This document shows positions 877-3,941 of a DNA stretch of 64,000 nucleotides, piece by piece. This stretch comes from Phytohabitans houttuyneae. Lineage in GTDB: Bacteria > Actinomycetota > Actinomycetes > Mycobacteriales > Micromonosporaceae. Made by a program: the position numbers and the translations under genes. The notes beneath the pieces were generated by a model. The model saw only the letters and a list, made by a program, of their open reading frames with translations. It was not told the origin of the DNA and ran no database searches. Numbering within the stretch: the stretch's first letter is position 1; each line of letters starts with the position of its first letter. The stretch is taken from the NCBI RefSeq assembly GCF_011764425.1, contig NZ_BLPF01000001.1:4951001-5015000 (forward strand). Direction: 5' to 3'.

Positions 877-1736
877 GCGCGTCGAGCTGGCGGCTGCGAG
901 TGCAGCACAAGACCGGTTTCACGTACGCGGGGCCGGTGGCCGCGTCCTACAACGAGGCCCGCATGTCCCCGCGCAACGAGGCCCGCCAGGCGGTGCTCGA
1001 CGCGCGGGTGGAGGTGTGGCCGCCGGCGCGCACCTACCGCTACGAGGACTACTGGGGCACGGTCGTCACCGCGTTCGACGTGCACGCCGCGCACGAGACG
1101 CTGCAGGTCACCGCGACCGCGACCGTCGAGACGCTGCCGGCGGGCGACCTGATCGCGGGCGACGGCGGTGCCACGTGGGGCGAGCTGGCCGTGCCGGAGA
1201 CCGTCGACCGCTGGCACGAGCTGCTGCTGCCGACCCCGCGCACCGCGCTCGACGAGGAGCTGACCGAGGTGGCCAAGCGGGTGCGCGGCGAGCACCCGAC
1301 CCCGCACGCCGCCGCGCTGGCCACCTGCACGCTGGTCCGCGAGGAGGTCGAGTACGTGCCGGGTGCCACCGGCGTGCAGACCGACGCGGTGCAGGCGTGG
1401 CGCCAGCGCAAGGGCGTCTGCCAGGACATCAGCCACCTGGTGGTCGGGCTGCTGCGGGCGATGGGCACGCCCGCGCGGTACGTCTCGGGCTACCTGCACC
1501 CTTCGCCGGCGGCCGCGATCGGCGAGGCTGTCGTCGGGCAGAGCCACGCCTGGGTGGAGTGGTGGGTCGGTCGTTGGACGGCCTTCGACCCCACCAACGG
1601 CATACCGGTCGGCGAGCGGCACGTCGTCGTCGGGCGCGGCCGGGAGTACGGCGACGTGCCGCCCCTGAAAGGCGTCTACTCCGGACCGGAAAACAGCGGG
1701 CAGGGCGTGGAAGTCACTGTGACCCGGCTGCGCTGA
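873..1736 (+). CDS. Transglutaminase-like cysteine protease family protein
   Basis: A 287-residue protein with an N-terminal beta-rich bacterial transglutaminase domain (about 1-100) and a C-terminal transglutaminase core. The likely catalytic triad is visible: Cys183 in GVCQDISH, His225 in QSHAWVEWW, and Asp239 in AFDPTNG. The start is the GTG at 873, which overlaps the stop of the alpha-E gene (GTGA); a longer open frame upstream is a shadow of that gene. The family acts on peptide bonds or amide crosslinks. With the alpha-E protein it probably belongs to the alpha-E/ATP-grasp/transglutaminase cluster, whose ATP-grasp gene would lie upstream of the window. The substrate cannot be predicted. 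Confidence 0.88.
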   Translation: MSASSWRLRVQHKTGFTYAGPVAASYNEARMSPRNEARQAVLDARVEVWPPARTYRYEDYWGTVVTAFDVHAAHETLQVTATATVETLPAGDLIAGDGGATWGELAVPETVDRWHELLLPTPRTALDEELTEVAKRVRGEHPTPHAAALATCTLVREEVEYVPGATGVQTDAVQAWRQRKGVCQDISHLVVGLLRAMGTPARYVSGYLHPSPAAAIGEAVVGQSHAWVEWWVGRWTAFDPTNGIPVGERHVVVGRGREYGDVPPLKGVYSGPENSGQGVEVTVTRLR

Positions 1737-1754
1737 GGGCTATCCTGGTCGGCA
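1718..1754 (+). promoter_or_regulatory. Promoter of the thrS attenuator leader
   Basis: TGTGAC at 1718-1723, a 17-nt spacer, and TATCCT at 1741-1746 form a sigma-70-type promoter inside the end of the transglutaminase gene. The ATG of the leader peptide begins 7 nt after the -10 box, so the transcript would be leaderless with the A of ATG at or next to +1. Confidence 0.6.
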
Positions 1755-1807
1755 TGCGAAGCGCAGTAGTCACGACGACGCCGGGATGTCCCGGCGTGAC
1801 CTCGTGA
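1754..1807 (+). CDS. Threonine-rich leader peptide of the thrS attenuator
   Basis: A 17-codon ORF encodes MRSAVVTTTPGCPGVTS. Three consecutive ACG threonine codons at 1772-1780 are followed by an ACC threonine codon near the end. It has no Shine-Dalgarno sequence, but a -10 box lies 7 nt upstream. It ends 18 nt before a terminator hairpin and 85 nt before a threonyl-tRNA synthetase gene. This is the arrangement expected for ribosome-mediated attenuation: stalling on Thr codons when charged tRNA-Thr is scarce. The peptide itself is not expected to have a function. Confidence 0.7.
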   Translation: MRSAVVTTTPGCPGVTS

Positions 1808-1834
1808 TGCGCTAGTCCTGACTGAGGCCCGGGC
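1778..1834 (+). promoter_or_regulatory. Attenuator: alternative RNA pairing in the thrS leader
   Basis: A perfect 8-bp hairpin (1778-1785 with 1790-1797, loop ATGT) begins at the third ACG codon. Its 3' arm contains CCCGG, which can also pair with CCGGG in the 5' arm of the terminator (1825-1834). A ribosome stalled on the Thr codons would cover the 5' arm of the first hairpin, release CCCGG, and let it block the terminator. This pairing is inferred from complementarity only. Confidence 0.6.
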
Positions 1835-1855
1835 GACTCCGCCCCGGGGCCTTTT
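1825..1855 (+). terminator. Attenuator terminator upstream of thrS
   Basis: AGGCCC-GGGC (1825-1834) pairs with GCCC-GGGCCT (ending at 1852) around a short loop with one bulged G, and is followed by TTTT. It lies between the leader peptide and the synthetase gene, so it acts as the regulated terminator in the attenuation model. Confidence 0.65.
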
Positions 1856-1892
1856 CGCTCTTCGGGGGCGGCTGCCCACGAAGGAGACGACG

Positions 1893-3080
1893 ATGATCGA
1901 CCACCGCAAGCTCGGCCGCGAGCTCGAGCTCTTTCACTCCGACCCGCTCGCCGGCGCGGGCCTGCCGATCTGGCTGCCCGCCGGCGCCGCCGCCCGGCAC
2001 GCCGTCGAGGAGTACATCCGGGAGGAGGAGCGGCGCGCGGGATACCAGCACGTGTACTCGCCGCCGGTCGCCAAACGCCAGCTGTACGAGCTTTCCGGGC
2101 ACCTGCCGCACTTCGCCGAGGACATGTTTCCGCTCATGCGCCTGTCGCCGGACGACGAGTTCGTGCTGCGGCCGGCACTCTGCCCGCACCACGCGCTCGT
2201 GTACCGGTCGCGTGGCCGCTCGTACCGCGACCTTCCACTGCGGATCGCCGAGCTCGGCGGCATGTACCGCGCCGAGCGCTCCGGCGTGCTCGGCGGGTTG
2301 AGCCGGGTGCGCTCGATCTGGCTCAACGACGGGCACAACTTCTGCCCCGTCGACCGGGCCGGCGAGGAGGTGGCCGCGGTGCTGGAGATGATCCAGCGGG
2401 CGCACGCGGCGCTCGGCGTGCGGCCGGCCGGTTTCCGCCTCTCGCTGCACGGCGCCGGCGACAAGTACGTCGACAACCCGCCGATGTGGGAGCGCACCGA
2501 GGACGTGCTCCGCGGCGTGCTCAAGGACCTCGGCGTGTCCTATGTGGAGGCGCCGGACGAGGCGGCCTTCTACGGCCCGAAGATCGACGTGCAGGTGCTC
2601 GACGCGGCCGGACGCGAGATGACCCTCTCGACCGTGCAGCTCGACTTTCACCAGGCCGCCCGCTTCGAGCTGTCCTATGTGGACCGCGATGGCGCGCGGC
2701 GCCGCCCGGTAATCGTGCACCGCAGCGTCGTGGGGAGCATGGAGCGCCTGTTCGCGTACCTCATCGAGGTGCACGAGGGCGCCTTCCCCGCCTGGTACGC
2801 CCCGGTGCAGCTGGAGATCCTGCCGGTCGGCGACGCCGCGGTGGAGCGCTTTGCGCGGTCCGCCATCACCGCCGGCCTGCGCGCCGAGGTGGCCGGCGAG
2901 GGCACCCTCGGCGCCCGGATCAGAGACGCGGCGCGGCGCAAGGTGCCGTACGTCGCGGTCATCGGAGCCCGAGAGGCCGCCGCCGGCGCGGTCTCGCTCC
3001 GCCTGCGCGACGGCCGCGAGCACGGCCCGCTCCCCGAGGGGGAGGCACTGGACCTGATCGCGGCCGCCGCCCGTCCGTAA
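1893..3080 (+). CDS. thrS: Threonyl-tRNA synthetase, short form without N-terminal editing domains
   Basis: A 395-residue protein covering only the catalytic core and C-terminal anticodon-binding domain; bacterial ThrRS is usually about 640 residues with TGS and editing domains in front. The class II motifs are present, including motif 2 around YRAERSGVLGGLSRVR (125-140) and motif 3 around RSVVGSMERL. The three zinc ligands expected of ThrRS are kept: Cys97, His148 and His276, with spacing matching the E. coli enzyme. The start at 1893 follows a good Shine-Dalgarno sequence (GAAGGAGA). Without the editing domain it should activate Thr but could not clear Ser-tRNA-Thr itself. It may be a second ThrRS induced under threonine limitation; a full-length thrS is presumably elsewhere. 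Confidence 0.88.
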   Translation: MIDHRKLGRELELFHSDPLAGAGLPIWLPAGAAARHAVEEYIREEERRAGYQHVYSPPVAKRQLYELSGHLPHFAEDMFPLMRLSPDDEFVLRPALCPHHALVYRSRGRSYRDLPLRIAELGGMYRAERSGVLGGLSRVRSIWLNDGHNFCPVDRAGEEVAAVLEMIQRAHAALGVRPAGFRLSLHGAGDKYVDNPPMWERTEDVLRGVLKDLGVSYVEAPDEAAFYGPKIDVQVLDAAGREMTLSTVQLDFHQAARFELSYVDRDGARRRPVIVHRSVVGSMERLFAYLIEVHEGAFPAWYAPVQLEILPVGDAAVERFARSAITAGLRAEVAGEGTLGARIRDAARRKVPYVAVIGAREAAAGAVSLRLRDGREHGPLPEGEALDLIAAAARP

Positions 3081-3131
3081 GCGCGTGCGGGCGCCCCCCG
3101 TGGGCGCCCGCCAGCACAACACGTCAGGGCC

Positions 3132-3941
3132 TTAGTTGATCGCGCGGCGCATGAAGCCCCTTATGCCGACCGCGGTGAAGATGACGCCCGAACCGATCAG
3201 GACCAGCACGCAGACCCACGGCGGCATGTGCGGCACCTCGGGGACCACGGCGGCGCGGACCGCCTCGGACAGGTACGTCAGCGGGTTCAATGCGGTCACC
3301 ACCTGAAACCATCGCATCGAGTCGAGGGACTGCCACGGGTACTGCGTGGCGCCGGTGAACATGAGCGGCGTGAGGATCACCGCGAAGATGACGCTGATCT
3401 TCGAGGGCGGGACCATCGTGCCGAGGGTGAGCCCGATGCCGGCGCCGACCCAGCTGCCCAGGACGAGGCTGGCGATCAGCAGCGGTACGCCGTCGGAGTG
3501 CCACGGCGCCGAGCCGAGCACCAGCGCGCCGATCGGAAACATCACCACCGCCGAGGCGAGCGCCCGGATGATGGCGAGGAGCAGCTTCTCGAGCGCCACC
3601 AGGTACGTGGGCAGCGGTGCGAGCAGCCGGTCCTCGATCTCCCGCGTGAAGCTGAACTCCATGATGAGCGGGAACGAGACGGTCTGCAGCGCGGTGAGAA
3701 ACGCGGTCAGTGCCACGATCCCGGGCAGCAGCAGGTGGGCGTAGTCGTCCGTCACGTATCCACCGGCGTTGAGCACCTTGGCGAAGACGAACAGCATGAA
3801 CAGCGGCTGGAGCGCCACCTGGGCGAGGAACACCCAGAACTCCTTGCCGGTCACGAAGACGTCGCGCCACAGGATCGCCCGGAACGCCTTCGCGGCCGAC
3901 GGGCGGGCCTCGGTCGGCGTGGGAGTGTCCAGGACGGTCAT
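3132..3941 (-). CDS. ABC-2 type exporter permease (DrrB-like)
   Basis: A 269-residue membrane protein with about six hydrophobic segments starting near residue 35, typical of ABC-2 permeases of the daunorubicin-resistance type. It contains the conserved region EIEDRLLAPLPTYLVALEKLL between early membrane segments. It overlaps the upstream ATPase gene by 4 nt (ATGA), so the two are translated together as a half-and-half exporter. The substrate is unknown; such pairs commonly export hydrophobic drugs or lipids. A MarR regulator heads the operon, which suggests induction by a small molecule. Confidence 0.9.
   Translation of the reverse strand: MTVLDTPTPTEARPSAAKAFRAILWRDVFVTGKEFWVFLAQVALQPLFMLFVFAKVLNAGGYVTDDYAHLLLPGIVALTAFLTALQTVSFPLIMEFSFTREIEDRLLAPLPTYLVALEKLLLAIIRALASAVVMFPIGALVLGSAPWHSDGVPLLIASLVLGSWVGAGIGLTLGTMVPPSKISVIFAVILTPLMFTGATQYPWQSLDSMRWFQVVTALNPLTYLSEAVRAAVVPEVPHMPPWVCVLVLIGSGVIFTAVGIRGFMRRAIN

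Follow-up and report, generated by a model that had tools for sequence, protein, structure and literature searches.

The stretch of DNA analysed here, 64,000 nucleotides of the Phytohabitans houttuyneae genome (contig NZ_BLPF01000001.1, positions 4,951,001 to 5,015,000; the window), carries a short gene for threonyl-tRNA synthetase (ThrRS), thrS, preceded by a promoter, a small open reading frame (ORF) with three adjacent threonine codons and a series of predicted RNA hairpins. Judged from its sequence and that of its relatives, this leader is very probably a ribosome-mediated attenuator that senses Thr-tRNA and controls a spare, editing-less ThrRS. The features are as follows, numbered from the first position of the window.

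1718-1746, forward strand: promoter, with -35 box TGTGAC (1718-1723), 17-nt spacer and -10 box TATCCT (1741-1746)
1754-1807, forward strand: leader ORF MRSAVVTTTPGCPGVTS, 17 codons, ATG at 1754, stop codon at 1805-1807, predicted leaderless
1760-1813, forward strand: outer stem closing the leader ORF, AGCGCA (1760-1765) with TGCGCT (1808-1813) and TCACGA (1770-1775) with TCGTGA (1802-1807), from the fold
1772-1780, forward strand: putative sensor codons ACG ACG ACG, within the leader ORF
1778-1797, forward strand: H1, 8-bp hairpin, 1778-1785 with 1790-1797, beginning at the third Thr codon, from the fold
1790-1833, forward strand: predicted antiterminator pairing, CCCGG (1790-1794, 3' arm of H1) with CCGGG (1829-1833, 5' arm of H2)
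1824-1855, forward strand: H2, terminator-like hairpin (1824-1853) with TTTT (1852-1855), from the fold
1831-1877, forward strand: apical strand of H2, GGGCGACT (1831-1838), complementary to GGCTGCCC (1870-1877)
1858-1886, forward strand: H3, Shine-Dalgarno hairpin, CTCTTCG (1858-1864) with CGAAGGAG (1879-1886), one G bulged, from the fold
1882-1886, forward strand: Shine-Dalgarno sequence AGGAG, before the thrS start at 1893
1893-3080, forward strand: short thrS, 395 aa, TIGR00418 at 412.5 bits (cut-off 383.65), five Thr codons, all ACC

An initial annotation of this DNA had described the promoter and, 7 nt downstream of its -10 box, the 17-codon ORF with three adjacent ACG codons, and both are found at those places in the window sequence. 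The -35 box is identical to TTGACA at 4/6 positions and overlaps the 3'-terminal part of an upstream frame whose stop codon is at 1734-1736, the promoter being embedded in coding sequence from 1718 to 1736. The distance of the leader ATG from the -10 box fits a leaderless transcript, and transcription is accordingly predicted to start at 1754. A TAnnnT box precedes five short ORFs (at most 40 aa) on the two strands of the window, and the peptide motif TTT occurs in MRSAVVTTTPGCPGVTS only. An Rfam scan of the window, T-box models included, returned no family at gathering score.

The predicted fold of 1754-1862 has an energy of -59.0 kcal/mol, compared with -42.0 +/- 3.7 kcal/mol for 200 shuffled sequences (z = -4.6), none of which folded as well (0/200). 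Sequence and fold agree with the initial annotation on the 8-bp hairpin that begins at the third Thr codon and on the hairpin with TTTT at 1824-1855, and the complementarity that it saw between the 3' arm of the first (CCCGG) and the 5' arm of the second (CCGGG) is present in the window sequence; the outer stem, H3 and the codon partition described below are additions. H2 of the window, taken from a single-sequence fold, combines the hairpin and the U-tract that characterize an intrinsic terminator. The 5' arm of H1 (1778-1785) lies within ∼13 nt of the first ACG, a geometry in which, given the footprint of a ribosome, a stalled one could mask it. Paired by hand, the duplex of GGGCGACT with GGCTGCCC has 7/8 pairs, two of them G-U, and the best duplex found by the program adds GGGG (1865-1868); its energy is -11.4 kcal/mol in the window and -13.9 to -16.9 kcal/mol in five relatives from the genus, whose segments were placed by hand.

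The downstream enzyme is a second ThrRS. A domain scan of the short ThrRS found the catalytic and anticodon-binding domains alone, and the same genome encodes a full-length ThrRS of 667 codons that is 42% identical to it over the shared part. Short ThrRS matches are present in 179/250 genomes of the window's family (E ≤ 1e-120) and in 62/394 genomes of the class (E ≤ 1e-100).

The leader is conserved with this gene. A TTTP or TTP leader behind a -10 box was found upstream of short thrS in 158/163 regions, which answers the check for conserved Thr codons proposed in the initial annotation and supports its claim that the synthetase is switched on when charged tRNA-Thr is scarce. In 156 of these regions the TTTP or TTP ORF starts 10-16 nt after a TAnnnT box, which served as the selection rule, and 154 of them have TTTP; the other two (L119 and L086), checked separately, have the core and the box further upstream. 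Two of the 163 regions are cut by contig ends (L076 and L151), and in three (L066, L166 and L176) a leader ORF was not found upstream of short thrS. No TTP ORF was rejected for want of the box, which stands at -13 or -12 in 146/156 leaders and, as a control, precedes 27/1509 other ATG or GTG codons in the same upstream regions. Duplicates were left in the set of 163; among the 156 regions with a leader, L020 and L160 are identical and the number of distinct sequences is 155. Leaders outside the window's family are typically of the form M-Q/K-RA-x-TTTP-E/D-x-VPAR, and those inside it often MRSAxxTTTPGxPG. We read the peptide ends as following the RNA, because the outer stem joins the start of the ORF to the region of its stop codon.

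The presence of TTTP, proline included, in 154/156 leaders would also suit an element that senses another signal, for example arrest of the nascent TTTP peptide or binding of the RNA by ThrRS protein. The proline codon CCG belongs to the H1 stem and the residues flanking TTTP vary, both of which would argue against peptide arrest, while the H2 loop varies and covaries, unlike what would be expected of a protein-binding site. We regard a signal other than Thr-tRNA as very improbable.

An alignment of 56 leaders (A2), all from outside the window's family, was the basis of a covariance model, R1, that recovers the leader of the window with a score of 37.4 bits (E = 2.5e-7 in a scan of the window). 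Across the whole genome, with 150 of 23,922 first-look candidates scored, the window leader is the sole match at E ≤ 1. In the 394 class genomes, where eight candidates per genome were scored under stricter filters, R1 gave 57 matches at E ≤ 1e-10, of which 56 come from genomes that also have a match to short thrS; the remaining one (G481) is a TTTP leader, MQRAANTTTPERVPAR, at a contig end. Many of these matches are also in A2, and the scan thus shows specificity rather than independent discovery. Those of the weaker matches that were read were rejected as Thr leaders: L266, L268 and L270 lack one, L260-L264 carry an aromatic leader instead, and no TTT ORF with a box was found in L280, L281, L283 and L284. 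No short ORF with TT and a -10 box was found upstream of 14 full-length thrS genes of the window's family (L099 truncated), nor upstream of a Streptomyces thrS (L234) scanned alongside them.

The threonine codons are partitioned between leader and gene. In the leaders, 437/462 Thr positions are ACG, with 135/154, 148/154 and 154/154 at the first, second and third positions of TTTP leaders; the third is the only one of the three inside the H1 stem. Of 88 short thrS genes, 83 lack ACG, which accounts for 5/605 Thr codons in the whole set (L166 is included; L086, L076, L151, L176, the 501-base pieces and any frame no longer than 360 codons, L084 among them, are omitted). Short thrS of the window's family has ACG at 0/220 Thr codons, whereas open frames nearby have it at 401/1662 (24.1%; Fisher p = 4e-25); for other families the figures are 5/373 and 490/1411 (34.7%; p = 1e-51). 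These neighbouring frames, like the 30 frames kept for the window, are open frames chosen by GC content at codon positions rather than annotated genes. The window gene taken singly has ACG at 0/5, a small number, and the ACG share is 38.1% in the other window frames and 26.3% in the full-length thrS of 13 family genomes. The short enzymes are also poor in threonine: they have a mean of 6.9 residues (five in that of the window), whereas the corresponding part of 13 full-length enzymes has 13-19, or 1.7% compared with 4.2%.

An ACG-poor, Thr-poor thrS might instead reflect nothing more than the strong codon bias usual in expressed genes, and ACC is indeed the commonest Thr codon in the neighbouring frames. 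The same short thrS genes nevertheless use other NNG codons normally (Ala GCG 41%, Pro CCG 70%, Val GTG 46%, four-fold Ser TCG 43%), so the scarcity of ACG is not a general codon bias. Moreover, genes of the window's own genome use ACG freely, including full-length thrS (16/28), the EF-Tu genes (10/34 and 19/32) and alaS (18/41); thrC has 8/17 and 4/21. Codon bias is therefore, in our judgement, a most improbable explanation. The partition extends to a genus outside the family, in which two thrS genes carry such leaders, MARVFWSTTTPGISRRLSLAR (L265/L279) and MARMHRPTTTPGTSRRHPRMR (L282). The first gene is full-length (684 codons, with a tRNA_SAD domain), has ACG at 0/24 Thr codons and is the sole ThrRS match in its genome at E ≤ 1e-10; the second is full-length by likeness to the first and has 0/22 in the part read. 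A short thrS for which a leader was not found (L176, 52% identical, on a contig labelled uncultured Gemmata) has ACG at 7/14.

The hairpins are preserved as well. In A2, H1 is 99.1% paired and nearly invariant, the equivalent of the outer stem (4 pairs) is 89.9% paired with no double changes, and H2 has double changes in 8/14 pairs. The test for covariation that the initial annotation proposed finds double changes in H2; the antiterminator is invariant, and H1 nearly so. The segment between H2 and the Shine-Dalgarno sequence (segment 5) shows complementarity to two partners, the apical strand of H2 and the Shine-Dalgarno strand, and both pairings are conserved. Native partners pair more strongly than partners swapped between genomes, at -15.7 compared with about -12.8 kcal/mol for the H2 apex and -15.0 compared with about -12.6 kcal/mol for the Shine-Dalgarno strand (n = 141), and two control pairings showed no gain for native partners. 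In non-redundant sets the respective p values are 1.1e-7 and 2.4e-5 within the window's family (n = 44, segments of the window's genus placed by hand) and 3.7e-5 and 0.0032 in other families (n = 26). The H2-apex helix is 93.5% paired in A2 with 26 double-change cells, 25 of which fall at three loop positions that are unpaired in H2, and its covariation of 0.252 exceeds that of shuffled alignments (0.185; 0/500) and of slid ones (0.04-0.12). For the Shine-Dalgarno helix the paired share is 79%, and 4/9 pairs show double changes. The two pairings overlap by at least 3 nt in 61/68 sequences outside the family and 34/76 inside it, and where they do so they are mutually exclusive.

These elements suggest how the leader may work. 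With charged tRNA-Thr plentiful, the ribosome would pass the ACG run and reach the stop codon, H2 (a candidate terminator in the window) would form and H3 would hide the Shine-Dalgarno sequence, so that little enzyme would be made. With charged tRNA-Thr scarce, above all that reading ACG, the ribosome would stall on the run and mask the 5' arm of H1, and the freed 3' arm (CCCGG) would pair with the 5' arm of H2. The apical strand of H2 could then pair with the segment before the Shine-Dalgarno sequence, and thrS would be transcribed and translated. With few Thr codons and almost no ACG, the enzyme would be makeable in the very starvation that induces it. It is likely that sensing is biased to the ACG-reading tRNA and that thrS is starvation-proofed, and the spare ThrRS can probably still be made while the leader ribosome stalls.

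The output of the switch may differ between the window and the class. Termination of transcription, the output proposed in the initial annotation, is plausible in the window, with its TTTT, whereas a T-run of at least four follows H2 in just 7/141 relatives (at least three in 26/141), and translation may therefore be controlled as well. These 141 do not include the window; automatic placement of H2 kept 141/152 leaders and gave a wrong hairpin or one removed by the filter in the window and ten others, four leaders having been lost earlier. A purely transcriptional attenuator, with H2 as intrinsic terminator and both H3 and the extra pairing as GC-rich by-products, would agree with the TTTT, with the U-tracts of the classical trp attenuators of the phylum, as far as they are described in the available passages of PMC1262725, and with a hiding of the Shine-Dalgarno sequence that is barely beyond that of shuffled sequences. 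The rarity of T-runs in relatives speaks against it, as do the H2-apex and Shine-Dalgarno pairings, which beat swapped partners in two non-redundant sets, and we consider it possible though rather doubtful. The other account is that most of the class uses translational attenuation, with H2 as a switch hairpin, its apex and the Shine-Dalgarno strand competing for segment 5, and the window adding a terminator. The covariation and swap tests of the H2 apex favour this account, together with the overlap in 61/68 sequences outside the family and the hairpin of Streptomyces lividans thrL, which in the available part of its report has no U-rich run (PMC8079986). The overlap in 34/76 of the window's family and in 0/4 genus members, static folding that yields no general switch and the weak hiding of the Shine-Dalgarno sequence count against it, and we give it a little less than even chances. 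Translational control remains a plausible output across the class, most of which has an H2 more suggestive of a switch hairpin than of a terminator with a U-tract; H2 of the window could do both.

Several observations weigh against the attenuator as described. The antiterminator equivalent in A2 (7 bp) is 95.4% paired but invariant and therefore draws no support from covariation. Two of the five measures applied to the H2-apex helix fail to exceed shuffled alignments (double-change pairs 64/500, pair types 62/500), and for the nested structure a slide by +1 gives 32 double-change cells against 26 for the structure itself, although the slid version is 46.6% paired compared with 88.6%. Four members of the window's genus (L001, L005, L007 and L008) show no overlap of the two pairings; in them most of the target of the apex is loop sequence of the Shine-Dalgarno hairpin. 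Nested folding of 152 leaders gave a mean Shine-Dalgarno access of 0.291 in the stalled and 0.282 in the released state, which is no general switch, with a rise of more than 0.2 in five and a fall of more than 0.2 in three. For the window, the probability that the Shine-Dalgarno sequence is unpaired was 0.17 released and 0.27-0.34 stalled (0.17 to 0.34 in the comparison of leaders). Access is slightly below that of shuffled sequences (0.289 against 0.354, n = 141), falling under 5% of shuffles in 21/141. As H2 is far stabler than the antiterminator and its rivals, any switch would have to be kinetic and co-transcriptional. Among the genes, L166 has ACG at 0/8 yet no leader was found upstream of it, and L084 has a leader yet three ACG and three ACC codons, in a frame too short for the counts. 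Finally, the S. coelicolor ilvB leader resembles an attenuator, and codon changes in it were without effect according to the passages at hand of PMC1262725.

In the known literature, the nearest element is thrL of S. lividans. RNA-seq there revealed eight leader peptides, among them thrL before thrS, and the TK24 thrL is given as leaderless, with one hairpin without a U-rich run and termination called not clear (PMC8079986, in part). As is predicted for the leader described here, it encodes a leaderless peptide, MKRVRPFLETTPGFVPAR, before a threonine-tRNA ligase gene, and it shares its TTP core and VPAR end with leaders of the present comparison; unlike the present analysis, the report concerns one genome and one hairpin, and its available passages contain neither a comparison nor a codon partition. 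The ligase gene, SLIV_19410, would be a short thrS paralogue. The basic element, thrL before thrS, is thus already known, and the codon split and the additional helices are new here. The available parts of a 2005 survey of actinobacterial attenuators list none for threonine (PMC1262725), and our literature search, which most subscription journals lay beyond, found no further thrS leader in actinobacteria. A search for the codon partition, limited in reach, turned up general theory and E. coli only. The LEU element and the translational ileS T-boxes of Actinobacteria are comparable to the thrS leader in that a leader peptide or an RNA switch is predicted to control the Shine-Dalgarno sequence, but in the LEU element the codon run itself pairs with that sequence, whereas the thrS leader would use a separate segment (PMC1262725, in part). 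Inspection of ACGACGACG by eye shows no CUCC that could pair with AGGAG, for which 1858-1864 is the predicted partner.

Other synthetase and threonine systems offer partial parallels. The three catalytic zinc ligands of ThrRS correspond to the invariant C97, H148 and H276 of alignment A1, which gives no sign of zinc independence. Vecchione and Sello reportedly described in 2010 an auxiliary, antibiotic-resistant TrpRS gene of Streptomyces coelicolor under ribosome-mediated transcriptional attenuation. It is likewise a second actinobacterial aminoacyl-tRNA synthetase under a leader peptide, whereas Trp has a single codon and leaves no choice of isoacceptor, and the drug resistance conferred there is not shown for ThrRS here. 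Borrelidin resistance was considered as the role of the paralogue. As we read the alignment, the short and the full-length enzyme alike have Gln at the site of E. coli L489, which thus does not tell them apart (PMC4389257, in part). Anabaena ThrRS T2 is also an inducible second ThrRS, with impaired editing, but it is repressed by Zur and induced by low zinc, and the available passages of its report mention no leader peptide (PMC4787780).

Downstream of thrS, a GC hairpin (3081-3131, by eye) separates the gene from a convergent open frame on the minus strand (3132-3941) that by eye resembles an ABC-transporter permease; thrS is thus seemingly transcribed alone. A separate observation concerns the aromatic leader of L260-L264 (G453, G470, G444, G369 and G479, all of one family). 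This leaderless-looking peptide, for example MQRKFWRFYGYRPLGRTVARLALR, is preceded by a TATAGT box, followed by a GC hairpin and located before a gene for DAHP synthase, an assignment made from NF006421 and for L264 only. The arrangement resembles a single attenuator that would sense Phe, Trp and Tyr together.

Our results bear on the choice of codons in starvation responses. The E. coli thr leader controls biosynthesis and not a synthetase. Genes needed in starvation should avoid sensitive codons, which is the other side of the idea that leaders use them. According to the theory in the available passages of Elf and Ehrenberg, isoacceptors lose charge at different rates and leader codons should be the most sensitive ones, which would explain their bias (PMC1183508). 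The E. coli thr operon leader shares ribosome-mediated attenuation at Thr codons with the leader described here but uses eight ACC codons, in place of ACG (PMC1183508, in part). In the actinobacterial case, the tRNA that loses its charge first would be the ACG reader, and the gene would have been purged of ACG for synthesis during starvation. It is tempting, though we put this slightly below an even chance, to see a class-wide emergency system in which ACG is the alarm in the leader and is purged from a Thr-poor, ACC-only, editing-less ThrRS, with competing helices linking the position of the ribosome to transcription and to access to the Shine-Dalgarno sequence. The split between leader and gene is near-pure across many genomes, also in the two leader-bearing full-length thrS genes, and exchanging codons in the leader and in the gene would put a prediction of charging theory directly to the test. 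The system further points to a role for the editing-less second ThrRS of actinobacteria, as an emergency enzyme for when the main ThrRS or threonine fails, and this role may extend to antibiotics that inhibit ThrRS.

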